From contig NZ_CP087724.1 of NCBI RefSeq assembly GCF_024972755.1, positions 1,612,001-1,676,000 of the forward strand: a DNA stretch of 64,000 bases. The letters run 5' to 3'. Made by a program: the position numbers and the translations under genes. The notes beneath the pieces are model-generated. The model was not told where the DNA came from. It searched no databases and saw nothing but the letters and a program-made list of their open reading frames with translations. Source of the DNA: Halanaeroarchaeum sp. HSR-CO (GTDB lineage Archaea; Halobacteriota; Halobacteria; Halobacteriales; Halobacteriaceae). Positions 3,920 through 48,607 of this stretch are shown here, piece by piece (the first letter of the stretch is position 1; each line of letters opens with the position of its first letter).

Positions 3920-5647
3920 ATGACACGAGACACGAACACATTCAGTCGCAGGACGGTCGCCGTCGTCGTCGTCCTGCTCGTCGCCGCTGGGATGACAGCT
4001 GGCGCGGTGCTGGCTGCACCGGCGACAGCCGACGACCCGTCAGCGGTGACGGGCGCGGACCAGGTCCAGCAGGTAGAAGAGAACGAAACGACCACCGAAG
4101 AGCCGGCTGACGACGAAACAACCGAGGAGCCGGCTGACGACGAAACAACCGAGGAGCCGGCTGACGACGAAACAACCGAGGAGCCGGCTGACGACGAAAC
4201 AACCGAGGAGCCGGCTGACGACGAAACAACCGAGGAGCCGGCTGACGACGAAACCACCGAAGAGCCAGCCTTGACACGTGCGGGCGACTACATCACGTAC
4301 ACCACGCCGGCTGGTGAGGCCTACGGTGTCGAGAATCTGACCATCTCGGAAGCCGAGGATGACGAGATGATAGAAGTAACCGCGGAAGTGACCAACCCGA
4401 ACGACTGGCTCGCTGTCCAGTCAGTCGAGTTCAGGGCCGACGGTGACGTCGTCGAGCGCACGCACGTCGCTCTCGAGGGCCACGAGACCGACCACGTGTC
4501 GTTCACCCTCGACACGAGCGAGTGGGAAGACGATGACCACACCGTCGCCATCCTCAGCCACGACTACGGCGAAGTGATGTCACTGGCCGAGGAAGAACCA
4601 GTTGAAGAACTCGAAGCCAACGTCACATTCGAGGATCAGACCAGTAACGGGACCACAGTCGTCGTCGACGAGGTCCACCTCTCCGATGGCGGCTTCGTGG
4701 CGATTCACGAGAGCGCCTCGCTCGCCGAGGGCGACGCGGTCGGTAGCGTCATCGGGGTTTCGGAGTACCTGACTCCGGGCACCCACGAGAACGTGACTGT
4801 CACGCTCTTCGACGTCCCGGGTGCGGACTTCGACGGTACATCGCTCGACGCTGACACGGACCTGACCGCTATGCCCCACGTCGATTCGAACGACAACATG
4901 GCGTTCGAGTTCGTGTCCGAGGAGGGTGCTGAAGACGGACCGTACACCGAAGACGGTGAGGCGGTCGTCGACGACGCGTCCGTGACTATCGAGGAGGACG
5001 CCGAACCCACCGCGAGTGTCACGTTCGACGACCAGACCAGTAACGGAACAGCGGTAGTCGTCGACGAAGCGAACCTCTCCGATGGCGGCTTCGTGGTGAT
5101 TCACGAGAGCGCCTCGCTCGCCGAGGGCGACGCACTGGGAAGTACCATCGGCGTCTCCGAGTACCTGTCTCCAGGCACGCACGAGAACGTGACGGTCACG
5201 CTCTTCGACGTCCCGGGCCAGGACTTCACTGAGACCGAACTCGAAGACGACACGAACCTGACCGCGATGCCGCACCTCGACACGAACGACAACAGTGAGT
5301 TCGACTTCGTGTCCGAGGAAGGTGCAGAAGACGGTCCCTACACCGAAGACGGTGAGGCTGTCGTCGACGATGCAATGGTAACGGTCGAAGCTGATGAGCC
5401 CGCGCCGACAACCGAGGAACCAACCAACGAAACGACCACTGAGGAACCAACTAACGAAACGACCACCGAGGAACCAACTAACGAAACGACCACTGAGGAA
5501 CCAACTAACGAAACGACCACTGAGGAACCAACTAACGAAACGACCACTGAGGAACCAACTGACGAAACGACGACGGAAGAAGCGACTGACGAGACCACGA
5601 CAGAAGACGACGCAGGAGCGGAGACCACGACCGAAGCCGAAGCGTGA
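3920..5647 (+). CDS. Secreted acidic repeat protein with two DUF7282-like domains
   Basis: The 575-residue protein begins with a Sec-type signal (RR, then a hydrophobic run about residues 13-33, ending AAPATA). A low-complexity linker of 9-residue units TEEPADDET follows, then a domain of unknown type (about residues 115-225), then two copies of a domain of about 125 residues. Each copy begins VTFxDQTSNGT and ends with EDGPYTEDGEAVVDDA, matching haloarchaeal DUF7282. The last 85 residues are a second low-complexity tract of TEEPTNETT units, rich in Asn-x-Thr sequons. No PGF-CTERM or C-terminal membrane helix is visible, so it is either released or held by another means. The role is unknown; it looks like a cell-surface or extracellular protein with glycosylated stalks. 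Confidence 0.8.
   Translation: MTRDTNTFSRRTVAVVVVLLVAAGMTAGAVLAAPATADDPSAVTGADQVQQVEENETTTEEPADDETTEEPADDETTEEPADDETTEEPADDETTEEPADDETTEEPADDETTEEPALTRAGDYITYTTPAGEAYGVENLTISEAEDDEMIEVTAEVTNPNDWLAVQSVEFRADGDVVERTHVALEGHETDHVSFTLDTSEWEDDDHTVAILSHDYGEVMSLAEEEPVEELEANVTFEDQTSNGTTVVVDEVHLSDGGFVAIHESASLAEGDAVGSVIGVSEYLTPGTHENVTVTLFDVPGADFDGTSLDADTDLTAMPHVDSNDNMAFEFVSEEGAEDGPYTEDGEAVVDDASVTIEEDAEPTASVTFDDQTSNGTAVVVDEANLSDGGFVVIHESASLAEGDALGSTIGVSEYLSPGTHENVTVTLFDVPGQDFTETELEDDTNLTAMPHLDTNDNSEFDFVSEEGAEDGPYTEDGEAVVDDAMVTVEADEPAPTTEEPTNETTTEEPTNETTTEEPTNETTTEEPTNETTTEEPTNETTTEEPTDETTTEEATDETTTEDDAGAETTTEAEA
4097..4270 (+). repeat. 27-base tandem repeat (EEPADDETT)
   Basis: Six near-identical 27-base units plus a partial seventh encode EEPADDETT in the N-terminal linker of the secreted protein. 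The copies are nearly identical at the DNA level, including synonymous sites, so copy number probably changes by slippage. Confidence 0.85.
5414..5602 (+). repeat. 27-base tandem repeat (EEPTNETTT)
   Basis: About seven 27-base units encode EEPTNETTT, the last two changed to EEPTDETTT and EEATDETTT. The unit has the same length as the first array but different sequence and adds an Asn-Glu-Thr glycosylation sequon per copy. Confidence 0.85.
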
Positions 5648-11563: not shown

Positions 11564-12087
11564 CTCAGGTCACCCCCGAACCTGGTCGGAGACCATGATC
11601 GTTCTGGCGGGCAGTAGGACAGTCATACTTCCCAGAAATCCCGGCTGAACGGGTGTGCATACCGGGTAATCAGGTCTTACCGGCTTAATGGTTGTGGCGG
11701 GTCGGTTTCGCGGACGTGCCGACGAACGAGCGGAATACGTACCTGATGAGGTCTCGTTTCTCACTCCCGGGAAGTGCGGAGTAGTGCCAGTAATGGAATC
11801 TTAATAACTGAATTGCGTCCGGTAAGAATGTCAAACCGACGACCACCGTCCAGATGACGGTTCGGTCGGGAGGGCTGCCCATTCGAGCCGAAGAACACGG
11901 TATCTCCGACACCGGCAGCCTGAGATAGACGAACCATAACTATACGGTGACCGGCGGTACCTCCGGGCAACCGAATGCAACCGACCGAGTCCGTGCTTAG
12001 CGTCTCGTTCTACCGCCACGGCGCGGGAAGGGCGTCCTGCTGGAGGTGCGAAACAGTACCCGCCCTGCCGAAGACGCCCCGACGACG
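11564..12087. other. 524-base intergenic region, AT-richer than surroundings
   Basis: The stretch between the small acidic protein gene and the flippase gene is less GC-rich near 11790-11830 (GGAATCTTAATAACTGAATT), where promoter elements could lie. A 75-residue ORF on the minus strand (11685-11912) is rich in His, Tyr and Trp and lacks the acidic bias, so I do not call it. Nothing else is visible. Confidence 0.4.
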
Positions 12088-13602
12088 ATGAGTGGGACCG
12101 AGAACTTCGTCAACCGGTTTCTGTCCATCTTCAGCGCGAAGGTCGTCACGTCGCTGACGGCTATCGTCTCGACGCCGATCATCGTGAGGCTCCTCGGACC
12201 GGGGGGATACGGTGATTACGCGGTGTGGCTCTCGGTGTACTCGCTCTACATGATACCGATCAGTGCCGGCATCACCGAAGGGGTCCAGAAGTTCGTCGGC
12301 GAGGACCGGGGGATGGACGACTGGCGGGCCTACGTCCTCCGCTTTTACCTCCAGCTCGCGGCCGTCATGGTCCTCGTCGGCGTTGTCGGGTTGCTCGTGT
12401 TCACCAGTCTCGGGGGGGCGGCGATGCTCTTCGACGACGATTTCACCCGGTACTTCTACTTTCTCACGGTGTTCGTCCTCGTTGGCCAGTTCCGCGCGGT
12501 GACCGGGCGAACGGTCCTCGGACTGGGACTCGAGCCGATCTCAGAGTCGCTGAAGGTAGTCAAGAAGTTCGCTATCATCGGACTCGGCATCGCCCTTGTC
12601 GCGATCGGGTACGGCGTGACCGGGATGATGGTCGGACATATCGTCGCCAATGGCCTCGTCGCAGTGGTTGCTGGGATCGTCATCCTCCGCCGGGTCTCGA
12701 TTCCCGCATTGCTCGCCGGTCCCGAGCGGGACTTTCCCTACCGGGAATTGCTCTCGTTCAACGTGTTGAACATCGTGTTGGTACTGCTGGTCATGTCCCT
12801 CTACCACGTGGACATCGTCATGCTCCGTTCGTTCACCGGGGCGGAGACGACCGGGTTCTACAAGGCCGCGCTCGCGCTCGCGGAGTATCTCTGGTTCGTC
12901 CCCATCGCGTTCCAGACGATACTCCTGCATACGAGTTCGAGTCTCTGGAGCGACGAACGCCTGGGGACGATAACGTCGATAGCGAGCCGAATAACACGGT
13001 ACACGACGTTGCTCGTCGTCCTCATGGCCGTCGGTGTCGCAGTCCTGGCGGACCGATTCGTCGTCCTGTACTACGGTTCCGAATTCATCGTCTCGGTCAC
13101 ACCCCTGTTGTTGTTGCTCCCAGGAACGATCGGGTTCGCGATCGCTCGCCCACTCCAGTCTATCAGTCAGGGTTCCGGTCGGCTGACCGTTCTCATCATG
13201 GCCGTATCGGTAGCAGCGGGAGCGAACGTCGTATTGAACGCCCTGCTCATCCCGCGATACGGCATGAACGGAGCCGCCGTCGCCACGAGTATCGGGTACG
13301 GCTCGATGTTCGGTCTCTTCGTGTGGGCGGCCCGCCGGATCGGGTACGACCCACTCCACGACTTCCGGGCCAGCCGTATCGTGGCGACGGTCGTCGTCAC
13401 CGCACCGTTCATCTGGGCACTCGACGCGGCTATTCGGTCGGACCTTGTGGCGCTACTGCTCGTTCCGGTGTTTGGCGGGGTTCTCTTCTCGATCGTTGCA
13501 ATCCGCGTTGGGGCCATCGACGTGGAAGAACTGTATGACATCGGCGAACGGCTCCCTGGGCCTACCGACCGAATGATCGTACTTCTCGACCGTCTCGCTT
13601 AA
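12088..13602 (+). CDS. Oligosaccharide flippase (Wzx/RfbX type)
   Basis: The 504-residue protein has about 12-14 membrane helices spread along its full length and begins SGTENFVNRFLSIFSAKVVTS, the usual start of polysaccharide-export flippases of the MATE-like MOP superfamily. Other family-like pieces are GPGGYGDYAVWLSVY and ITEGVQKFVGEDRG in the first 75 residues. It would move a lipid-linked glycan across the membrane. I chose the ATG at 12088; a GTG at 12046 would add 14 residues. Its 3' end overlaps the glycosyltransferase gene by four bases in convergent orientation. Confidence 0.88.
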   Translation: MSGTENFVNRFLSIFSAKVVTSLTAIVSTPIIVRLLGPGGYGDYAVWLSVYSLYMIPISAGITEGVQKFVGEDRGMDDWRAYVLRFYLQLAAVMVLVGVVGLLVFTSLGGAAMLFDDDFTRYFYFLTVFVLVGQFRAVTGRTVLGLGLEPISESLKVVKKFAIIGLGIALVAIGYGVTGMMVGHIVANGLVAVVAGIVILRRVSIPALLAGPERDFPYRELLSFNVLNIVLVLLVMSLYHVDIVMLRSFTGAETTGFYKAALALAEYLWFVPIAFQTILLHTSSSLWSDERLGTITSIASRITRYTTLLVVLMAVGVAVLADRFVVLYYGSEFIVSVTPLLLLLPGTIGFAIARPLQSISQGSGRLTVLIMAVSVAAGANVVLNALLIPRYGMNGAAVATSIGYGSMFGLFVWAARRIGYDPLHDFRASRIVATVVVTAPFIWALDAAIRSDLVALLLVPVFGGVLFSIVAIRVGAIDVEELYDIGERLPGPTDRMIVLLDRLA

Positions 13603-14594
13603 CGATCCATCACCGAAGGGACGCCATGGATACTATCTCCCTCGGAGAGTACTTCTACAGAATCGACCGGATATCGCTCCGGTGGCGGGACCGGATCGAC
13701 GATACCGAGACCGAGTCCGAGGAGGCCCACGGTTTTGTGGAGAAAAAACAGCAACGAATCGCTGACTCCACGGTGCCGGACGACCACGCCGAACGCAAGT
13801 CCCGCGACACCGATCCAGGCGACGAGTGTCCGCCGATGGCGGATCGCGAGAACCCCCGCGAGTAACCATGCGAGGATCGTCAGTCGAAATCGGATCCTGT
13901 ATAGATGGTTTCCCAGAAGAGTGGGCGACGGCCACGATCGCCGTAACGCGTGACCCGTCCCCTTCGAATACCCACGCCTCCACCGACGCAATGGTTCGAA
14001 TAGATGAGCGCGATCGGGGTGGGTTGCGGCGACCTCCGGAAGTCGGACCATACGATGGCCAGCGACACCGAGTTCGAATCCGAGGTGGATGTCCTCGAGG
14101 GCACCCAGGTAGGGATCGAATCCTCCGACAGATTCGAGCGCCTCCCGATCGTACAGGGCAACCCCACGAACCGACGAAACGGGTTCTGGACGGTTCGAAC
14201 CGGTTTCGTTGAGATGACCATCGACGGCCGCCACCTGGTGGCCCTCCATGTAGGAGATGGCTGCTGTAAGCCAGTCGGCCTCGATCTCCATATCCCCATC
14301 GACGAAGAGGATCCGAGAAGCGTCGACCAATTCGGTCCCGACACGTCGTCCGGCACCCGGTGTGACATCGTCGGTCGTGAGACGAACGACGGTGACCGGA
14401 TAGGCCGATGCCTTCTCGACAGTGTCGTCAGTGGATTTCGAGTCGACGACGACCACTTCGAACCGAGACACCGTCTGTTGGCAGGCCTCGATTACCGACT
14501 CCAGACAGCGCTCGATTCTGTCGGCTTCGTTTTTCGTAACGATCACGACGGACAGCGCGATCTCGTCGCGGTCGTCAGCAGTCGAGAGGGTCAT
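13599..14594 (-). CDS. Family 2 glycosyltransferase with C-terminal membrane segments
   Basis: The 331-residue protein begins with LSVVIVTKNEADRIERCLES, the nucleotide-binding strand of GT2 enzymes. VVVDSKSTDDTVEKA follows, then RILFVDGDMEIEADWL with the metal-binding DGD, and the ALEDIHLGFEL acceptor-side ED. Hydrophobic segments near residues 230-275 probably attach it to the membrane. Its start overlaps the stop of the beta-helix gene by four bases (ATGA), so the two are likely translated as a pair. Sugar and acceptor are unknown. Confidence 0.88.
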   Translation of the reverse strand: MTLSTADDRDEIALSVVIVTKNEADRIERCLESVIEACQQTVSRFEVVVVDSKSTDDTVEKASAYPVTVVRLTTDDVTPGAGRRVGTELVDASRILFVDGDMEIEADWLTAAISYMEGHQVAAVDGHLNETGSNRPEPVSSVRGVALYDREALESVGGFDPYLGALEDIHLGFELGVAGHRMVRLPEVAATHPDRAHLFEPLRRWRRGYSKGTGHALRRSWPSPTLLGNHLYRIRFRLTILAWLLAGVLAIRHRRTLVAWIGVAGLAFGVVVRHRGVSDSLLFFLHKTVGLLGLGLGIVDPVPPPERYPVDSVEVLSEGDSIHGVPSVMDR

Positions 14595-16018
14595 CGAGGC
14601 GTGAAATCACCGTCACTGGCGTCCATCCGTTCGATATGTTCTGTTTCGCCATCCGGGGACACGATCGTCGTGTTCACGATCGTCGCTGTCGACTGTCGCA
14701 GCACGATCGGATCGCCGGAAACGGCGATCCGACAGTCTTCGATGAGTGTGTCCTCCGCCGACGAGAAGCGGAGACCGTGTCTATCCACACCGCTCATATC
14801 GATGGTACATCCGCTGAAAACAGTCCCCGTCCGGCCCTCGATCTTACCCACGAATCCGCCGTTCGCTTCGCCGGAGATGGAGACGTTCTCGAACACCGGA
14901 CCCGACTCCGCAGGCTCGATCGCCGGGAGTGCAAAGATCGCTTTGTAGTCGTCTCGGTGGACTTCGATGGCAGTGTTTTTCACGGTGGCTCCGCGGTTTT
15001 CCGGATGGAACACGACGGCCCCGAAGCCATTACCCGAGTCGGGCCCGATGTGTATGCGGGAGTTCTCCACGAGTTGATCCTGGCGGTGTCGAAACCGAAT
15101 ACCTCGGACATTTACCGATTCTGCATCCGGTGGGTCGGTTGCGACGACGTCGACGTTTCGTGCCGTACTCCCCGTCGAACCCAGGCGAATGTTGGAGATA
15201 TTGTTGTTCCGGTATTTGCCACCCTCGACCCGTACGATACCGTTTTTCCCACTGCGTAACCCAGGCGAGGACGCATACAATCCATTATCCGAGAAGCCCT
15301 CGAGTTCACAGTCCTTGAAAACGAGTTCACCCGCGTGTGAATCGCCGACGTAGACACCGGTGAGCGTGGGATTGTCGTCCGTGTTGCGTGCCTTGAATTG
15401 GTCGAACTCGAACGTCCCGTCCTTGCTCAGTGCGTCGATACGAACCAACGATATCTGGTTTTCACAGCTACCCACGACAGAGACGTCACGAACGGTAACG
15501 TCACCCTGTGTTCGAAAGTGAATCGGACCGCCGCCGTTCGACTGTCGAAAGTCGAACGTTATACCATCGACAAGCAGGCCATCGAGGGATTCGAAAGATA
15601 AGAATGGCCCGTCGCCCACACAGGTCCCATCGGTCGGTACCAACGTCGAGCGGCCCGTTTCCATTCCAATGATCCCGAGATTTTCGTACCCCCCAATGAT
15701 GCCAGAGGAAATCCGAAACTCACCCTCCGGTAACGCCATTAACGTGTCGTTGCTACTGTATTCTCGGAGAAACGAGTCGATCGATTCGGACGAATTCGGC
15801 ACGACACCGTGATCGGTCGCTCGGATCACCGTCGCGAATGCATCCGCATACGGGATGTCGTCCTCCGGTTCGGCCGTTGGTTCTTCGGTCGGTTCGGGTG
15901 TATTGTCTTCTTCGGGTTCCGAAGGTGTTGTACGCCCTCGATACCGTACTGTGACAGCACCAACCACACCAACTGTGCCGGCGACGCCGGCGGTTTTCAA
16001 ATATTCACGTCGATCCAT
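14591..16018 (-). CDS. Tat-exported right-handed beta-helix protein
   Basis: The 475-residue protein starts MDRREYLKTAGVAGTVGVVG, a twin-arginine signal with the RRxYLK pattern, then a Pro/Glu/Thr linker. The body (about residues 65-475) has repeated short strands with Asn, Gly and Ile ladders (YENLGIIGMETGRSTL, VRDVSVVGSCENQISL, VEGGKYRNNNISNIRLGS), typical of parallel beta-helix proteins such as pectate lyases and other polysaccharide-active enzymes. No catalytic residues can be assigned by eye. I chose the ATG at 16018, eight residues inside the longest frame, because it puts the signal at the N-terminus. It is translationally coupled to the GT2 gene downstream. Confidence 0.8.
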   Translation of the reverse strand: MDRREYLKTAGVAGTVGVVGAVTVRYRGRTTPSEPEEDNTPEPTEEPTAEPEDDIPYADAFATVIRATDHGVVPNSSESIDSFLREYSSNDTLMALPEGEFRISSGIIGGYENLGIIGMETGRSTLVPTDGTCVGDGPFLSFESLDGLLVDGITFDFRQSNGGGPIHFRTQGDVTVRDVSVVGSCENQISLVRIDALSKDGTFEFDQFKARNTDDNPTLTGVYVGDSHAGELVFKDCELEGFSDNGLYASSPGLRSGKNGIVRVEGGKYRNNNISNIRLGSTGSTARNVDVVATDPPDAESVNVRGIRFRHRQDQLVENSRIHIGPDSGNGFGAVVFHPENRGATVKNTAIEVHRDDYKAIFALPAIEPAESGPVFENVSISGEANGGFVGKIEGRTGTVFSGCTIDMSGVDRHGLRFSSAEDTLIEDCRIAVSGDPIVLRQSTATIVNTTIVSPDGETEHIERMDASDGDFTPR

Positions 16019-16058
16019 GAAGACCTCTATACAAGTTGGCACCCACGGAAACGCCTTA

Positions 16059-16179: not shown

Positions 16180-18471
16180 TCATCGCGGACAGCCGATGTC
16201 GGCAGCGGGTTCACTCGACCCGTAGTGGTTCTGGGGGAACTCCACGTTGGCCCACTCGTCAACGTGAACCTGAATGATCGATTCTCCCGTCCACCCGTCT
16301 GGTGAGGCGAGTGGTTCCGCCTCGTTGTAGAACCAATTGTCCTGGACAGACGCCAGAACCTCCGGAACCCCGCGAATCGCGACCGCCGGTTTACGATCGC
16401 CATCCGCCACCGAGTACGTCGCCTCGACCGTGTTCCGATAGATCTCCATGTCCGTCCCACCGGGTTTGTGCATGTCGATGACGTGGCCGATCGTCGACGA
16501 TCCGAAGTGGTTGTACCGGACGACGTACCCGCCCGAGCCCGATGAGGCGACGGAGTGACGGTTGTAATCGAAGGCGTTCCACTCGATAACCGGCCGCCCA
16601 CTGCTCGCGACGACACCGTACCCCAGGCCGTCCCGCGGGTTGTGGTGGATGTTGTTGTGGTGGACGTGCGGGGAGTTGCCGTTGGTCACCACCGAGGCGT
16701 ACGCGAATCCCCAGATCTCGTTGTTGTCGATCTCCACGTCGCCACCGACCGCCCGCACGCCCGACCCGGTCGCATACCAGTCAGGGTCGAAGTACTCGTA
16801 GAAGGGGCCTTCGACACGGATGCCGGTAAAGCGCGCGCCGCTGTTCAGGTAGATCGATTTCGTCTCTTCGTCGGTGTAGAGATGCCCCCCTGGTGCGTCG
16901 TCGATACCCCGGTTGGAAGCGAGGGTTACCCCCGACGGGACGACGATGTCCGTCGTCCCCATGTCGATGCTCGCGTTGCCCGCGAGGTAGACGACGTCAC
17001 CGGAACTGGCGTTCGAGAGGGCCTGCAGGAGCCCGGATTTCGTAGAGATGACCACGTCGGCCTCGTCGCGAGAGACGAGGTTGTCGTAGCCCTGGCCGCC
17101 GCCGACCGGTCCGCCCTCGACGGTGTTCGTCGTCGTTTCGGGTTCTTCCTCCCCAGTGAGTTCGTACGGAGTCACCTGTTCGCCGTCGAGGTAGAGCGCG
17201 AACTCCCCCTCCATCGGCGAGAAGTCCGTCACGGAGCGCTCGAAGACGAACGTGTCACCGTAGCCGTTGCCGGTGTACCCCTCCGCCGTCCAGGTGCCGT
17301 CGTCGTTCTCGGTGACGATGTCGTTGGTCTCCTCGGCTGAGTTGTCGCCGTTGTCCAGGTCCTTCTCGATCGGGCCCGTGCTCGTAAATGAGTAGTCGAG
17401 TTCGTCGGGCACGACGATCTCGAGCGTGTGCGTCGGGTCCTCGCCCACGAGCTCGTAGGGGGTGATCTCCTCGCCGTCGAGGTAGAGCGTGAAGTCGCCC
17501 TCCATCGGCGAGAACGCCGTCGCCGTCCCCTCGAAGGTGTACCCGTCACCGTAGCCGTTGCCGGTGAACCCTTCCGCGGTCCAGGTGCCGTCGTCGTTCT
17601 CGGTGACGATGTCGTTGGTCTCCTCGGCTGAGTTGTCGCCGTTGTCCAGGTCCTTTGCGATCTCGCCAGTCGTCGTGAACGAGTATTCCAGACTGTCCGG
17701 CACGACGATCTCGAGGAGATGTTCGGGATCCTCGGCGTCGGCCTCCTCGCCGACGAGTTCCTCGATCGACACCTCCCTCCCATCGAGGTAGATGGTGCAG
17801 GCGCCCTCGAGCACCACGAAGTCCGTCACCGAGCCATCGAAGGAGAACCCGTCACCGTAGCCATTGCCGGTGAACCCTTCCGCGGTCCAGGTGCCGTCGT
17901 CGTTCTCGGTGACCGAATCGTTGCCCGTCTCCGCGGAGTTGTCGCCGTTATCGGGGAGCATCTCGATCGGTCCCGTCGTCGAGAAGGTGTACGAGACGAG
18001 ATCCTCGGCCACGATCTCGATGACGTGCGTGTCGGGGTCTTCGACGAGGTCTTCGGGAGAGATCTCCTCGCCATTGAGGTAGATGGTACACTTCCCCTGG
18101 AGCACCTCGAACTCCGTCACCGAGCCATCGAAGGAGAACCCGTCACCGTAGCCGTTGCCGGTGAAGCCCTCGACGGTCCAGGCGCCGTCACCGTTCTCGA
18201 CGATGGTGTCGTTGCCCGTCTCCGCGGAGTTGTCACCGTTGTCGAGGAGTCGCTCGACCGGACCGGTCGTGGTGAACGCATAGGAGACCTTGCCCTTTGC
18301 AACGATCTCGAGAGTGTTAGAGTAAGATCCGCTTTCCGCCGCTGCCGTGCCCGCCGTCACCGCCGTCCCGACGATGCCAGCACCCGCAAGCTGCAGGATG
18401 CGTCGCCGAGAGAGGATACCGGATGTCTCTGCTGGGATATTCCGAGTAGGATCATCATTACGTCTCTCCAT
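16180..18471 (-). CDS. Tat-exported four-repeat plus beta-helix surface protein (paralogue A)
   Basis: The 763-residue protein begins with a twin-arginine signal (SRRRILQLAGAG, about residues 22-33). Four tandem domains of about 98 residues follow (about residues 48-430). Each has LEIVxxxxxxYxFTTTG, then DNGDNSAE, then GTWTAEGFTGNGYGDGF and an ending like CTIYLDGEEI. The last 320 residues form a parallel beta-helix with polar Asn/His ladders (EIDNNEIWGFAYASVV, HVHHNNIHHNPRDGLGYG). The repeat domain is unknown to me; the helix resembles polysaccharide lyases or epimerases. The start is the ATG at 18471 (MERRNDD), giving a normal signal. Part of its helix is identical in DNA to the paralogue at 20529, which has only one repeat domain. 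Confidence 0.82.
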   Translation of the reverse strand: MERRNDDPTRNIPAETSGILSRRRILQLAGAGIVGTAVTAGTAAAESGSYSNTLEIVAKGKVSYAFTTTGPVERLLDNGDNSAETGNDTIVENGDGAWTVEGFTGNGYGDGFSFDGSVTEFEVLQGKCTIYLNGEEISPEDLVEDPDTHVIEIVAEDLVSYTFSTTGPIEMLPDNGDNSAETGNDSVTENDDGTWTAEGFTGNGYGDGFSFDGSVTDFVVLEGACTIYLDGREVSIEELVGEEADAEDPEHLLEIVVPDSLEYSFTTTGEIAKDLDNGDNSAEETNDIVTENDDGTWTAEGFTGNGYGDGYTFEGTATAFSPMEGDFTLYLDGEEITPYELVGEDPTHTLEIVVPDELDYSFTSTGPIEKDLDNGDNSAEETNDIVTENDDGTWTAEGYTGNGYGDTFVFERSVTDFSPMEGEFALYLDGEQVTPYELTGEEEPETTTNTVEGGPVGGGQGYDNLVSRDEADVVISTKSGLLQALSNASSGDVVYLAGNASIDMGTTDIVVPSGVTLASNRGIDDAPGGHLYTDEETKSIYLNSGARFTGIRVEGPFYEYFDPDWYATGSGVRAVGGDVEIDNNEIWGFAYASVVTNGNSPHVHHNNIHHNPRDGLGYGVVASSGRPVIEWNAFDYNRHSVASSGSGGYVVRYNHFGSSTIGHVIDMHKPGGTDMEIYRNTVEATYSVADGDRKPAVAIRGVPEVLASVQDNWFYNEAEPLASPDGWTGESIIQVHVDEWANVEFPQNHYGSSEPAADIGCPR
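16469..16782. repeat. 314-base perfect direct repeat, copy 1
   Basis: This tract is identical, base for base, to 20818-21131 by my reading. It encodes the central beta-helix strands of paralogue A. One mismatch at 16783 ends the run, and similarity continues for about 25 bases. Outside, the genes differ by roughly a fifth to a quarter of positions. Confidence 0.9.
17150..18320. repeat. Four tandem domain repeats in paralogue A
   Basis: The four 98-codon units are about 295 bases apart, judged from the recurring GTGCCGTCGTCGTTCTCGGT core. The two C-terminal units (17240-17360 and 17540-17655) are almost identical over 110 bases, so they duplicated recently or are kept alike by recombination. 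Confidence 0.75.
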
Positions 18472-18476
18472 GGACG

Positions 18477-18501
18477 GGTATGAGAATCTTACTTCAAAAG
18501 G
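18477..18501 (-). promoter_or_regulatory. Conserved promoter block of paralogue A
   Basis: This 25-base block differs at only two positions from 21934-21958, at the same distance upstream of paralogue B. On the coding strand it reads CCTTTTGAAGTAAG followed by ATTCTCATACC, just before the start. TTTTGAAG may act as the TATA-like element, giving a short or absent leader. The match implies co-regulation of the two genes. Confidence 0.5.
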
Positions 18502-18535
18502 CGTTTTTACGGCTTTGAGCAGCACTACCCCCGCC

Positions 18536-18557
18536 AAATTACCGTTTGAGGTAATTT
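18536..18557. promoter_or_regulatory. Inverted repeat AAATTACC-GTTTGA-GGTAATTT
   Basis: This perfect 8-base arm pair lies 65 bases upstream of paralogue A and has no counterpart upstream of paralogue B. It shares the ATTACC...GGTAAT core with the element at 7916-7934, so a common regulator is possible. Confidence 0.45.
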
Positions 18558-19023
18558 CGATGCCAGGTAGCTACCGGATGCTATCGAATCGCTTCAACTG
18601 TCTATCGATCAGCGTATCGTCTTGCTTACCGCGATTAGTCTCTTCCTACCAGTCCTGTACGTACCTATCGAGATGGCGAATAGCGTCGCGCTGGTTCGAA
18701 AATCGGTGCGCGCGGTGTCGACAAATGGTCTACGGTCCAGAAGGAGTGACCGAAGCCATTCGATCCAGACGATGAACCGTAGAATTTGCTCCACTCGAGC
18801 AGCGATGAAAGATGTACGTGGATTGCCAACGGCTATATCCCAATCGAGCGGTTCGACCTCGTTTTCGAACCAGTTGACCGAATTTCGTCGACGTCGTTGC
18901 ACCGCGCAGATATCGCTTTCAGCGTGGCTACTTCCACGCCCGTGGAGAGGTATTGATCCCGTGGACCCGCAACCGGCGATATGGCAATTAATTGCTCTTG
19001 TGGCACAGTAACTCGGTGGAGTC
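18558..19023. other. 466-base region without a convincing gene
   Basis: The stretch between paralogue A and the sulfatase gene is less GC-rich than its neighbours. A 97-residue frame on the minus strand (18609-18902) and overlapping frames on the plus strand lack the acidic bias and have no recognisable motif. It could hold remnants of a lost gene. Confidence 0.35.
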
Positions 19024-20325
19024 TCAGGCGTACCCGAGTTCCTCGAGACGTTTCCGGACCTCGTTCGTGATATCGATTTCCGCAGGCTCCACCTCCCGCC
19101 GATCGAGCTCTGTTTTCAGTTCCTCGAGTCGGTCACGCGGGGCCCGTTCTTTCGTCTTCCCGATAACCGCAAACTCGCCAGGCTCGGACTCGTAGTAGTA
19201 CGCCCCATCTTTCGTCACGAAGCCAGCCAGGTCGGTCTGCCACCGCTCGAACTCCTTTAGCGGCGCATCGACTCTTTCGAACTGAGATCTATGGAAGGGG
19301 AGCAATCCGTGGGATTCGAAGAGAAGCTCTTTCGGCTCTAGCAAGCCGAACAGGTCTCTCCCATTCGATGCAACGTCGACCGATGCGAGTTCTGCGACCG
19401 TGCGGTGGACATCGAGGAGATTGACCGGTTCGTGCCGGTATCCCGACTCAATATCCGGGCCGTTGACAACCAATGGGACGTGGACGAGTTCGGGATGGAG
19501 TCCAACCGAGTGGTTCCACAGCCCGTGTTCGCCGAGCAACTCACCGTGATCGGATAGCGTAATCACGTACTCGTACTCCGTTTCGAGGATGGCGACGATG
19601 TCCCTGTACACCTCCGCCAGGTCGGTCGTTGCTGCACGATAGGCCGCTCTGATTTTTTCGGGTTCCGTGACGCCATCCGCAAAGGCGTCGGCAATAACAA
19701 CCGTCACCGGATCCTCGCTTCCTGGAGGCGGATGATAGGGCGTGTGCGTATCCATCAAATTGACGAACAAGAACTCCTCGTCTTCGACCTCCATGTGCTC
19801 GAGACGACGGCGGACCGCACGGGCACCGCCATCCCAGGCGGGTCGCTTCACGAGCCCATAGCCATACTGCAGTGACTCCATCGTGTTGCAGTCCTCGGTA
19901 AGACAGCCCCAAATTCCGGAGAGATACCGTTCGATACCGGGTTCCGTCGCATCGATATGTCGGCCCCAATCGAAGATGGAATCGTCAATTCGCCCGAGGT
20001 TCGCAGCACCCTCAAAGAGGTTGAACCCACGTTCCCATCCCTCGTACTGGGAGAGCTGAGTGTTTGCATTCAAAGCGCGGCACCGATAGCCCGCCTCCTG
20101 AAAAGCTTCCGCGAGGGTTTGGCCGGTCCAATCCAGGGAAGGAGACGTGCCAGTCGTGCCTACCTCACTTGCATACCGCCCTGTAAAGAGCGACGCATGC
20201 GCGGGAATCGTCCAGTGTGAGCTCGAATAGGCTCTGGTAAACGTTGCACCATCGAGCCAGTCGAAATGCTCCTCAAAAGAGTCCGCTCTGAGCGTATCGA
20301 GGACCACGAGCGCGACGGATGTCAT
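19024..20325 (-). CDS. Sulfatase-fold hydrolase or transferase
   Basis: The 433-residue protein has the alkaline-phosphatase superfamily layout. It begins ALVVLDTLRADSF with the metal-binding Asp, continues with SSHWTIPAHASLFTGRYASE at the nucleophile loop, and has TLSDHGELLGEHGLW with metal-binding Asp and His. The loop residue that is Cys or Ser in sulfatases is Thr here (W-T-I-P-A-H), and the usual Arg is His. Thr is the nucleophile in phosphoglycerol transferases, so phosphate-group transfer is as likely as sulfate removal. No signal peptide or membrane helix is seen. It lies between the two beta-helix paralogues on the same strand. Confidence 0.85.
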   Translation of the reverse strand: MTSVALVVLDTLRADSFEEHFDWLDGATFTRAYSSSHWTIPAHASLFTGRYASEVGTTGTSPSLDWTGQTLAEAFQEAGYRCRALNANTQLSQYEGWERGFNLFEGAANLGRIDDSIFDWGRHIDATEPGIERYLSGIWGCLTEDCNTMESLQYGYGLVKRPAWDGGARAVRRRLEHMEVEDEEFLFVNLMDTHTPYHPPPGSEDPVTVVIADAFADGVTEPEKIRAAYRAATTDLAEVYRDIVAILETEYEYVITLSDHGELLGEHGLWNHSVGLHPELVHVPLVVNGPDIESGYRHEPVNLLDVHRTVAELASVDVASNGRDLFGLLEPKELLFESHGLLPFHRSQFERVDAPLKEFERWQTDLAGFVTKDGAYYYESEPGEFAVIGKTKERAPRDRLEELKTELDRREVEPAEIDITNEVRKRLEELGYA

Positions 20326-20528
20326 CTAGCAATAGTACATCGCCAGCGCCGTGTTAGTTATGAAGTTATTACTTCTATTCACACTGATTGCATGGGGTTG
20401 GGGCTGCGATTCAGACGGTGTGATCGTGCGGGGGCGAAAAGACAGTTGCAGGGACACGGATTCGCGATCCGGTTAGGTGAAAGATGACAGCCATGTCGTT
20501 CGAACTTGCCGTTCACTCCGACCGGGAT

Positions 20529-21929
20529 TCAACGTGGACAACCGATGTCTGCAGGGGGTTCCGTAGATCCCAAGTGGTTGTTTGACCACTGGACATTCGT
20601 CCACGAGTCGACGTGGACCTGAATGATAGCCTCGTCCGTCCAGCCGCTCGGCGTCGAGCGCGGCTCGACGTCGTTGTAGAACCAGTTGTCCCTGATAGTC
20701 GCCTGGTCGTCAGGGACACCGCGGACGGCGACTGCCGGTTTTCGCTCACCGTCTGCGACCGACATCTCCGCCGCCACGGTGTTGTTGTATATCTCGATTT
20801 TCGAACCCCCAGGACGATGCATGTCGATGACGTGGCCGATCGTCGACGATCCGAAGTGGTTGTACCGGACGACGTACCCGCCCGAGCCCGATGAGGCGAC
20901 GGAGTGACGGTTGTAATCGAAGGCGTTCCACTCGATAACCGGCCGCCCACTGCTCGCGACGACACCGTACCCCAGGCCGTCCCGCGGGTTGTGGTGGATG
21001 TTGTTGTGGTGGACGTGCGGGGAGTTGCCGTTGGTCACCACCGAGGCGTACGCGAATCCCCAGATCTCGTTGTTGTCGATCTCCACGTCGCCACCGACCG
21101 CCCGCACGCCCGACCCGGTCGCATACCAGTCCGGGTCGAAGTACTCGTAGAAGGGGCCCTGCACGCGGACGCCGGCCAGTCGAGCACCCTCCTCGAGGAA
21201 GATCGACTTCGTCTCCTCGTCCGTATAGAGGTGACCACCCGGTGCGTCGTCGACGCCCCGGTTAGAAGCGAGCGTCACGCCCGAGGGGACGACGATGTCC
21301 GTCGTTCCCATGTCGATACTCGCGTTGGCGGTGAGAAACACGAGATCGCCGGAACTGGCGTCCGAGAGGGCCGCTTCGAGTTCGGATTTCGTGGAGACGA
21401 CGACGTCGGCATCCGCACGCCTGACGAGGTCGTCGTAGCCCTTGCCGCCACCGACTGGCCCGTCCTCGCTGGCAGACGGGGAATCTTCATTCTCATCGCC
21501 GAGAAGTTCCTCGACGGAGACCTCCGCGCCATCGAGGTAGATAGTGCAGTCGCCCTCGAGCACCTCGAAGTCCCTCACCGATCCATCGAAAGCGAACCCA
21601 TCTCCCTTGCCGTTCCCAGTATACCCCTTCGCCGTCCAGGTGCCGTCTCCGTTCTCGGTGACGGTATCGTTGAACCGCTCTGCGGAGTTCTCGCCATTGT
21701 CGAAGAGCCGTTCCAGTTGGCCGTCTGTCGTGAACGTATAGGACACACTTTCCTCGGCCACGACCTCGAGGGTGTGTGCGTAAGAACCACTTTCGGCGGC
21801 TGCCGTTCCCGCCGTCACCGCACTACCGAGGATGCCAGCGCCCGCGAACTGCAGGATACGCCGCCGCGTGAACGAGCCGGATTGCCGAGTTGTGCCATCG
21901 CGAGTAGGTTCGTCGTTACGTCGCTCCAT
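20529..21929 (-). CDS. Tat-exported one-repeat plus beta-helix surface protein (paralogue B)
   Basis: This 466-residue protein is built like paralogue A but with one 98-residue repeat domain instead of four. It has a twin-arginine signal (TRRRILQFAGAG), then the repeat (LEVVAEESVSYTFTTDG, DNGENSAERFND, GNGKGDGFAFDGS), a short Glu/Asp/Ser linker and a parallel beta-helix of about 310 residues ending ADIGCPR, as in A. The start is the ATG at 21929; the longer frame to 22052 reads through the promoter block shared with A. Substrate and catalytic residues are unknown. Confidence 0.82.
   Translation of the reverse strand: MERRNDEPTRDGTTRQSGSFTRRRILQFAGAGILGSAVTAGTAAAESGSYAHTLEVVAEESVSYTFTTDGQLERLFDNGENSAERFNDTVTENGDGTWTAKGYTGNGKGDGFAFDGSVRDFEVLEGDCTIYLDGAEVSVEELLGDENEDSPSASEDGPVGGGKGYDDLVRRADADVVVSTKSELEAALSDASSGDLVFLTANASIDMGTTDIVVPSGVTLASNRGVDDAPGGHLYTDEETKSIFLEEGARLAGVRVQGPFYEYFDPDWYATGSGVRAVGGDVEIDNNEIWGFAYASVVTNGNSPHVHHNNIHHNPRDGLGYGVVASSGRPVIEWNAFDYNRHSVASSGSGGYVVRYNHFGSSTIGHVIDMHRPGGSKIEIYNNTVAAEMSVADGERKPAVAVRGVPDDQATIRDNWFYNDVEPRSTPSGWTDEAIIQVHVDSWTNVQWSNNHLGSTEPPADIGCPR
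20818..21131. repeat. 314-base perfect direct repeat, copy 2
   Basis: Identical to 16469-16782 and in the same orientation, 4349 bases away. Homologous recombination between the copies would delete or circularise the sulfatase gene and leave one chimeric beta-helix gene. Confidence 0.9.
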
Positions 21930-21933
21930 ACCC

Positions 21934-21958
21934 GGTATGAGAAACTTACTGCAAAAGG
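21934..21958 (-). promoter_or_regulatory. Conserved promoter block of paralogue B
   Basis: This block matches 18477-18501 at 23 of 25 positions and sits at the same place before the start at 21929. On the coding strand it reads CCTTTTGCAGTAAG followed by TTTCTCATACC. Confidence 0.5.
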
Positions 21959-22178
21959 GCTTGTTACGGGTTCGAGCAGCACGACGGCCGGCATATTGTC
22001 GGACGACAGAGAATCCGTGCCGGATACCTGCCAGCACCCGACGGTCGGTCACACGGACTGACCCATCCCGGAGTTCGTGGCACCGATTGGCGATACGACG
22101 ACCTACCCGCTGTAGGCACCGTTGTGCGGGTCTGGTAGTCTACAAATAACATACCAGTTCGAAGACCTGAGTACCGCT

Positions 22179-23429
22179 ATGAATCGAGCGCGCGACGGAG
22201 CAGCAGTCGTCCCAGCGATCAAGGCACCGAACTCGGTGGCACTCCTTCGCTCGCTCGGCCGCCAGGGGGTCGACACGATCGCCGTGTCGGAACACGATCG
22301 TCCGCCCGCCTTCCGCTCCCGGTACGTCGACGAGCGAGTGGCGGTCCCGGTCCCCGGCGAGGACATCGATAGGTATCGTGCGGAGCTGTTGGCCCTCGCA
22401 CGCAGAGACGACGTGCGGGCGATTCTCCCGGTCAGAGAGACGGACGTCTACGCGCTCTCGACCGATCGGGCGGCGTTCGCGGAACACGTCGCCCCAATCT
22501 GGCCGACCGCAGATGCGCTCCGGACAGTCCACGACCGGGTTCGCCTCTTCGACGTCGCCGATCGGATCGGTGTCCACACGCCCGAGACGACATTGTTGAC
22601 CGAGGTGGAAGACTGGGACCGCGAACGGATCGTCAAGGGACGTTTCGCCATCCTGGTGAACGAGTTCGTCGATACGGTCCCCCCGGGGCGAGTTGCATCG
22701 CCGCCGAAAACGATTTTCCTCGAACCAGGGACGGTCCCGTACGTCGAATCGATAATCGACGAGATGGGCCACGTCCCGATCACCCAGGAGTACGTCCGCG
22801 GAACGGAGTACTGTCTCCGGGCCCTCTACCACGATGGCGAACCGGTCGCGACGTCCCAGAAACGGCTGCGACGTGGATACAAGTACTCACGAGGGCCGAG
22901 CATCTATCACGAAGCCGCCGACATCCCCGAACTGCGAACGGCTGGACTGCGCCTGCTGAACGAACTGGAGTGGGAAGGGATCGCCTCGGTCGGTTTCATC
23001 CGCGACGAATCTGGGCGATTCAACCTCCTGGAGGTGAATCCGCGCTTTCCGGCGAGCATCCCCGTCGACATCTACGCGGGCGTGGACTATCCCGGGTACG
23101 TGTGGAACCTGGCGACCGACCAGCCACTCGATCCCCCACCGGACTACCGTCCCGGTACGGCATCACATCTCCTCCGTGGCGAGGTCGCCCACCTCCACAG
23201 CGTCGTCGTCGAGGACTATCCGATGGTCGAGCGGCCAGGAGTCGGTGCGACCGTCTGGGACATCGCGAGTTCCACGCTGCGACACCCGAACTTCGACGTT
23301 GCCAGCCTGGACGACCCCGGTCCGTTCGTCCGTGACACCTGGAACGCCGTCAGGGGGACGGTCGGCAGTTCCAGTGCTTCCATCGCCGAAACGTGGAATG
23401 CGGTTCGATCGACGTTATCGGTCAGGTGA
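22179..23429 (+). CDS. ATP-grasp carboxylate-amine ligase (copy 1)
   Basis: The 416-residue protein has an N-terminal Rossmann-like domain (AIKAPNSVALLRSLGRQGVD), then an ATP-grasp fold. Landmarks are RLFDVADRIGVHTPET, then PITQEYVRGTEYCLRALYHDG, and GRFNLLEVNPRFPASIPVD, where the E-x-N pair binds metal. This family joins a carboxylate to an amine through an acyl phosphate. I chose the ATG at 22179 (MNRARDG), which aligns with the N-terminus of the second copy at 27814. Its 3' end overlaps a deacetylase gene by eight bases in convergent orientation. A ligase beside a deacetylase occurs twice here, which suggests amide formation on an unmasked amino sugar; that is inference. Confidence 0.82.
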   Translation: MNRARDGAAVVPAIKAPNSVALLRSLGRQGVDTIAVSEHDRPPAFRSRYVDERVAVPVPGEDIDRYRAELLALARRDDVRAILPVRETDVYALSTDRAAFAEHVAPIWPTADALRTVHDRVRLFDVADRIGVHTPETTLLTEVEDWDRERIVKGRFAILVNEFVDTVPPGRVASPPKTIFLEPGTVPYVESIIDEMGHVPITQEYVRGTEYCLRALYHDGEPVATSQKRLRRGYKYSRGPSIYHEAADIPELRTAGLRLLNELEWEGIASVGFIRDESGRFNLLEVNPRFPASIPVDIYAGVDYPGYVWNLATDQPLDPPPDYRPGTASHLLRGEVAHLHSVVVEDYPMVERPGVGATVWDIASSTLRHPNFDVASLDDPGPFVRDTWNAVRGTVGSSSASIAETWNAVRSTLSVR

Positions 23430-47575: not shown

Positions 47576-48607
47576 ATGCCTGCTACGGAGACCGATCCGA
47601 TCGAGTACTTCCTCGAGGACATGGCCTATCACGGTCGCTCTGACCGGACGATAGCGGCCTACGAACGGGTACTCAGCCAGTTTCGGGCGTATCTACAGGC
47701 GGGGGAAAGTCGGGCGGGTGACGATGCTGTCGGGCTCGGTGAAGCCACGCATCGTGATTGTCTGGGCTGGATACACGAACGAAGGGGGTCCGTCGCTTCC
47801 AGCACCATTGCCTCGTACGCCTCCTACCTCCATCGGTTCTACTCGTACATGGTGGAGGTCGGCGAGTTCGACGACAATCCGATGACTCTCGTCATGGAGG
47901 AGATGGACGAACAGATCGAGACAGACCCGAGCAGACGAGACGTCTCCGTCGACGAGATGCGTCGGTTCGTCGGACAGATCGCCCACCCAGGAGAGATAGC
48001 AATCGTCGTGACGCTACTCAAAACCGGTATCCGTGCCGGAGAGCTGTGTAATCTGGACCTCCGCGATCTGAATCTGTCGGGAATATCGGTGGAGAGCGGA
48101 CCGATCCGACCGACGCTGCGCGGTCGCCCGGATTCGCTGTTCGTCTCACAGGCGCCCACGGCGGGCGAATCGGTCAATGGCGAACCGCGCTCCGAGTCGA
48201 ACAAACGAAAGCGAGACACCGTCATTCCCGTCGATGCCGAACTCAAGCGAGTTCTCGAACGATGGCTCGCAATCCGCCCCGACACCCAATCGCCCGCTAG
48301 CCCCCTGTTCGTCAGCACGGATCAAAACTGGGGACAGCGTGTGACCGGCCCTGGTGTGCACTACGTCGTCGAACGGCATGCCAGAGAGAACGACTGGTAC
48401 GAGACGAACGGGGGTGCAGGGGCGAACGTGACTCCGCATTACTTTCGACACTTTTTCACCACCCACCTTCGAGACCGCACCGGTGATCGAGGCATCGTGA
48501 AGTATCTGCGAGGCGACGTGGCGCGAGACATCATCGACACCTATACGCACAACTGGGGCGACCGAGTCCGCGACGTCTACGAAGATAATATCTACAATCT
48601 GATATAG
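47576..48607 (+). CDS. Tyrosine recombinase (XerC/integrase type)
   Basis: The 343-residue protein has the N-terminal SAM-like core-binding domain (about residues 5-110) and the C-terminal catalytic domain. Catalytic residues seen are Arg in KTGIRAGELCNL, the His-x2-Arg box in TPHYFRHFFTTHL, His in IDTYTHNWGD, and the nucleophile Tyr in RDVYEDNIY. It cuts and rejoins DNA at specific sites. It is cotranscribed with DUF5805. A chromosomal role (dimer resolution) and a mobile-element role are both possible; no attachment sites are proven. Confidence 0.92.
   Translation: MPATETDPIEYFLEDMAYHGRSDRTIAAYERVLSQFRAYLQAGESRAGDDAVGLGEATHRDCLGWIHERRGSVASSTIASYASYLHRFYSYMVEVGEFDDNPMTLVMEEMDEQIETDPSRRDVSVDEMRRFVGQIAHPGEIAIVVTLLKTGIRAGELCNLDLRDLNLSGISVESGPIRPTLRGRPDSLFVSQAPTAGESVNGEPRSESNKRKRDTVIPVDAELKRVLERWLAIRPDTQSPASPLFVSTDQNWGQRVTGPGVHYVVERHARENDWYETNGGAGANVTPHYFRHFFTTHLRDRTGDRGIVKYLRGDVARDIIDTYTHNWGDRVRDVYEDNIYNLI

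Follow-up and report, generated by a model that had tools for sequence, protein, structure and literature searches.

In prokaryotes, paralogues such as those of tuf and mtrA, among others, undergo ectopic gene conversion and concerted evolution, as set out in the parts of PMC6053082 that treat these families; the archaeal genes named there number seven, all of them from methanogens. A second point of reference is the haloarchaeon Haloferax volcanii, in which intermolecular gene conversion equalises the genome copies over long tracts, sites 600 bp apart being nearly always co-converted, and a third is provided by bacterial multigene families, with conversion tracts of a few hundred nucleotides (both as described in sections of PMC8223754). 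The locus that is the subject of this work lies in a 64,000-nucleotide stretch of DNA from Halanaeroarchaeum sp. HSR-CO (the window, in what follows, is that whole stretch), and involves two paralogues, here called A and B. As in the cases of PMC6053082, these are copies within one genome that conversion would keep alike, in a pattern that recurs in related species; unlike those cases, the likeness is limited to the beta-helix domain of secreted haloarchaeal proteins. With Haloferax volcanii the locus shares a haloarchaeal host and probably the same recombination machinery, but in that organism conversion acts between genome copies and over long tracts, whereas here it would have joined diverged paralogues over a short one. 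Literature searches covering haloarchaeal gene conversion, concerted evolution, phase variation, and beta-helix loci retrieved no report that treats this locus, and none on conversion affecting these genes.

The genes of the locus are arranged as follows.

12046..13602, plus strand: polysaccharide flippase-like protein
13599..14594, minus strand: family 2 glycosyltransferase (GT2), same locus
14591..16042, minus strand: BH3, a beta-helix protein unrelated to A and B, same locus
16180..18537, minus strand: gene A, secreted, with four repeats of ~100 aa and a C-terminal beta-helix
19024..20325, minus strand: 'sulfatase' (alkaline-phosphatase superfamily, PF00884), between B and A
20529..22052, minus strand: gene B, secreted, with the plan of A but one ~100-aa repeat
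22122..23429, plus strand: ATP-grasp protein, at the module border

The minus-strand order is therefore B, 'sulfatase', A, BH3, GT2, with B upstream of A, and because the flanking genes encode a flippase, glycosyltransferases, an ATP-grasp protein, and sugar-nucleotide dehydrogenase and oxidoreductase proteins, this is a haloarchaeal polysaccharide locus. BLASTP ruled out BH3 as a third paralogue of A and B. In the 'sulfatase', the Thr of the motif HWTIPAH aligns to the place of the catalytic residue of choline sulfatases, where the native residue is Cys; the motif of formylglycine-dependent sulfatases has a Cys or Ser nucleophile. Since Thr occupies the nucleophile place in all 12 'sulfatase' sequences listed, the window's own included, the middle gene is, as far as its sequence indicates, unlikely to be a classical formylglycine sulfatase, and is perhaps another hydrolase or transferase of the superfamily. 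Elsewhere in the window, a gene for a DUF7282 protein (ORF 3920-5647) carries 27-nt tandem repeats at 4100-4254 and 5426-5560, and a PF00589 match above cut-off lies at 48002-48553, inside ORF 47576-48607.

Inspection by eye places the likelier start of gene A at the Met of residue 23 (position 18471), the listed TTG start being the earliest possible, and a by-eye count places that of gene B at the Met of residue 42; the N-termini of both proteins contain, again by eye, an RRR-containing, twin-arginine-like signal. A structure model of B, built on a 27-row alignment (mean pLDDT 78.3, with residues 1-88 and 187-204 low), predicts residues 213-498 as a right-handed beta-helix. Among its structural matches the alginate lyase 6kfn, which PMC8618178 gives as the PL31 enzyme PsAly, ranks first (Z 26.7, rmsd 2.4 over 250 residues, 20% identity), and the next, at Z 22-25, are alginate epimerases, a glycoside hydrolase, adhesins, a pectate lyase, and tailspikes. 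Such a match establishes the fold but says nothing on function, and A and B are probably to be regarded as putative polysaccharide-acting enzymes. Neither P0002 nor the alignment, when searched against PDB sequences, retrieved a credible relative, NCBIfam gave no matches to A and B, and a Pfam ECSIT_C match to A, slightly under cut-off, was regarded as chance. The four ~100-aa repeats of gene A (window 17154-18341) match one another exactly in DNA stretches as long as 77 nt, and for this reason they also seem to recombine.

An earlier note on this DNA had reported a 314-base perfect direct repeat within two clearly diverged genes. Recomputation bears out the repeat: positions 16469-16782 and 20818-21131, offset by 4349, are identical over 314 nt with zero differences, and the exact match cannot be extended by even 1 base at either end. 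Beyond a single mismatch, 26 nt more match, so that the whole tract (16469-16809 and 20818-21158) measures 341 nt with one difference.

16469..16782, minus strand: identical tract, gene A copy (A residues 586-690), exact match
16784..16809, minus strand: 26-nt continuation of the tract in A past one mismatch, exact match
20818..21131, minus strand: identical tract, gene B copy (B residues 308-412), exact match
21133..21158, minus strand: 26-nt continuation of the tract in B past one mismatch, exact match

Both tracts are in frame 0, have the same direction, and lie within the C-terminal right-handed beta-helix of the two secreted paralogues, on either side of the 'sulfatase' gene; the 2.79-Mb genome, in two contigs, yielded no further copy.

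The divergence around the tracts is equally clear. The C-terminal 936 nt of A and B align without gaps and with 160 differences, of which a single one falls within the 341-nt tract, against 159 over the remaining 595 nt of the domain. Silent sites behave likewise, since in the codon alignment fourfold sites are identical at 56 of 56 places in the tract, compared with 38 of 87 outside it (30/53 in the upstream flank and 8/34 in the downstream one); the higher silent identity upstream hints that this flank may carry an older, partly eroded conversion. The N-terminal region that includes the first repeat is 68% identical between A and B, with 31 of 66 fourfold sites the same. Consecutive identical codons number 104, where 20,000 codon shuffles reached at most 26, and if the 139 flank codons that encode the same amino acid are taken as a guide (54.7% identical), the chance of 104 in a row is approximately 10^-27. 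Tree distances between A and B amount to 0.50 for the flanks and 0.004 for the tract, in a tree that used corrected domain starts for some Halomicrobium-type rows and left out ORFs L053_7098, L060, and L088.

One could imagine that selection for a conserved catalytic core, acting at each site and with no recombination, keeps the segment identical, a case that the earlier note had named as one that would overturn its reading. Conservation within the family is indeed higher in the tract region, and residues 308-412 of B hold many family-invariant columns (N327, H348, H349, E374, N376, N381, R382, H383, Y393, R396, Y397, N398, and H412). However, selection at the protein level cannot explain the tract, because silent sites are identical too, at a level far above that of the flanks, and relatives' DNA across the region is 69-79% identical; this explanation has a practically negligible probability. 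The region is conserved but far from frozen, as its nearest relative by tract, the homologue of genome G335, has only about 75% DNA identity there.

The tract is far more alike than its surroundings, silent sites included, which is one mark of ectopic gene conversion; another would be a non-reciprocal transfer, visible against an unconverted ancestor or strain. Together with the abrupt edges and with the similar process in related tandem pairs (see below), this silent-site identity makes a recent ectopic conversion of ~341 nt between the diverged paralogues A and B very probable, its recency being suggested by the one difference in 341 nt. The earlier note had left open a shuffled cassette beside conversion, and copying of a segment between genes by other means, as a duplication or insertion and not as the overwriting of an existing homologue, is conceivable; such an insertion is nevertheless extremely improbable, as the 936-nt alignment is free of gaps and homologous sequence stands on both sides of the tract, and therefore an existing segment was replaced. 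It could also be argued that the copies differ in reality and that assembly or polishing gave them a single sequence, the 314-nt repeat being longer than short reads. Against this, the edges lie inside sequence that is diverged yet alignable, a mismatch is kept 1 nt beyond the exact tract, true differences would be expected at approximately 1 in 4 bases and would be hard to lose, and similar tracts occur in independent assemblies, so that an artefact is very unlikely.

Ectopic conversion probably proceeded as follows. A and B are old, diverged paralogues separated by the 'sulfatase' gene, one of which would have served as template for the repair of the other by homologous recombination, presumably of the RadA type; ~341 nt of the conserved beta-helix core would thereby have been copied, from A to B or from B to A, and copying without crossover would have left the gene order intact, in what may have been a single, recent event. 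The two parts of the domain differ in their closest neighbours, the tract tree joining the A/B pair to G335 (support 0.84) and the flank tree joining it to G094 (support 0.94), a discordance that may reflect weak signal or a beta-helix core whose mosaic origin is older.

Related loci bear on the question of which copy is the additional one. Genome G284 has an ATP-grasp gene, one beta-helix gene, 'sulfatase', BH3, GT2, and flippase, in the window's order and relative directions; the locus of G288 comprises beta-helix, 'sulfatase', BH3, GT2, and flippase; and G311, of the same genus as G284, has one beta-helix gene in the window's order without a 'sulfatase' gene. As the loci of G284 and G288 have one beta-helix gene upstream of the 'sulfatase' and otherwise the same order, the window probably contains one extra beta-helix gene, most simply A. 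In the congeneric loci L058 (G284) and L059 (G311) the locus is common to both, with the 'sulfatase' between the beta-helix gene and BH3 in one only.

In antigenic variation with silent copies, one expressed gene is accompanied by silent, usually partial donors. The earlier note had pointed out that recombination between the direct repeats would take out the 'sulfatase' gene on a 4349-base circle, with fusion of the paralogues, and that this could act as a surface-variation switch, a reading considered here as a reversible or programmed switch. The geometry stands: the tracts share direction, frame, and 314 identical nt, and because the fused product is in frame, excision is possible in principle, as with any pair of repeats in the same direction. 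The order of the fusion had to be amended, since on the minus strand with B upstream it is the N-terminus of B that would be joined to the C-terminus of A, and the reciprocal gene, with the front of A and the back of B, would accompany the 'sulfatase' gene on the circle. A locus without the 'sulfatase' gene, that of G311, does exist; however, G284 and G311 differ in this gene though each has one beta-helix gene, and its presence or absence thus does not need the repeat. For the lost 4.3-kb circle there is no known way back, which would make the event a deletion and not a switch, and the deleted form was not seen. Genome-wide protein-level matches all fall within A and B, both of which are full-length open frames, and the genome holds no silent copies or cassettes. 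A site-specific recombination switch would have recombination sites and, next to them, a recombinase; the repeat analysis of the window reported no inverted repeats, and the nearest integrase-family match (PF00589, the tyrosine-recombinase family) is ~27 kb from the repeat. The locus does resemble antigenic variation by gene conversion, of which PMC8223754 contains a general description, in that a segment of a secreted or surface protein gene is converted, but here there are two intact genes, and what was copied is a conserved core and not a variable region. The signature is one of copying and not of a maintained recombination site, and the switch, which would matter more if it were true, finds no support and is most unlikely.

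Of 392 genomes of the order, 50 have homologues of A and B at E 1e-15; within the family the count is 10 of 26 genomes at E 0.001. A pair orthologous to that of the window was not found in these searches or in G001, a congener from which the A/B genes are absent, the other relatives are too distant to stand in for an unconverted ancestor, and plasmid records gave distant homologues only (12 records, each below 60% identity). A tandem pair in which one copy carries more N-terminal repeats is present in 7 of 8 Halosimplex genomes. Among five of these the A-A identity is 0.88-0.95, the B-B identity 0.85-0.95, and that of A and B within a genome 0.77-0.86, and by this comparison the pair predates the five species. 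Judged by the N-terminal parts, in which A groups with A and B mostly with B, the origin of the long/short pair seems to precede that of the genus. The A copy of H. aquaticum (G392) has its closest match for the N-terminal part in the A of G395 (74.9%, as against 46.6% for its own B), whereas for the beta-helix its own B comes first (82%, as against 79.6% for the A of G395 and 60-65% for others). On the B side the N-terminal signal appears weaker, the five best matches being B copies but the A of G395 scoring 104 bits against 102 for the B of G395. In the beta-helix of this species, paralogues are thus closer to each other than to their orthologues despite a seemingly older duplication, which is the pattern expected under concerted evolution. 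In G371, 28 of 90 informative B sites have the A state, in 20 runs where shuffling leads one to expect 39.6; since G371 may be the earliest branch and have retained ancestral states, this mosaic speaks weakly for conversion. Elsewhere in core Halosimplex, switched sites number 0/58 (G208), 6/63 (G279), 1/59 (G393), and 2/59 (G394).

A methanogen-like archaeal MAG (L120, 6627-10980) has a tandem beta-helix pair with 369 identical nt. Its members are ~50% identical in the N-terminal part, their last six gene windows are identical, and the similarity runs past the stop codons; this MAG may contain an assembly error. The longest exact run was measured in 20 pairs (four Halosimplex pairs met twice were counted once, and the G094 pair was left out). 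The values are 314 nt for the window, 20 for G335, 93, 74, 36, 63, 80, 40, and 51 for seven Halosimplex pairs, 40, 36, 42, 28, 369, 71, and 29 for seven methanogen-like loci, and 21, 26, 35, and 16 for four further loci, so that runs above 100 nt occur in 2 of the 20, those of the window and of L120, with all others at or below 93 nt.

As a further example of a known process, the tract of A and B is a clean one, diverged protein-coding paralogues of a haloarchaeon having very probably undergone ectopic conversion recently; its interesting part is the recurring, domain-restricted homogenisation. Relatives suggest that the beta-helix domain has been homogenised repeatedly while the rest of the gene diverged, and trees built from the beta-helix only would therefore misread the history of the paralogues. 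It can be put forward tentatively, as a reading slightly more apt to fail than to hold, that in archaeal polysaccharide loci the tandem long/short pairs encoding secreted beta-helix proteins are recurrent sites of domain-restricted ectopic conversion, in which the core is homogenised time and again as the N-terminal repeat modules drift apart, and that this holds for three lineages or more (the haloarchaeon of the window, Halosimplex, and the methanogen-like MAG). If this were the case, conversion could hold both enzymes to a common substrate and leave their anchoring or targeting parts free to specialise.
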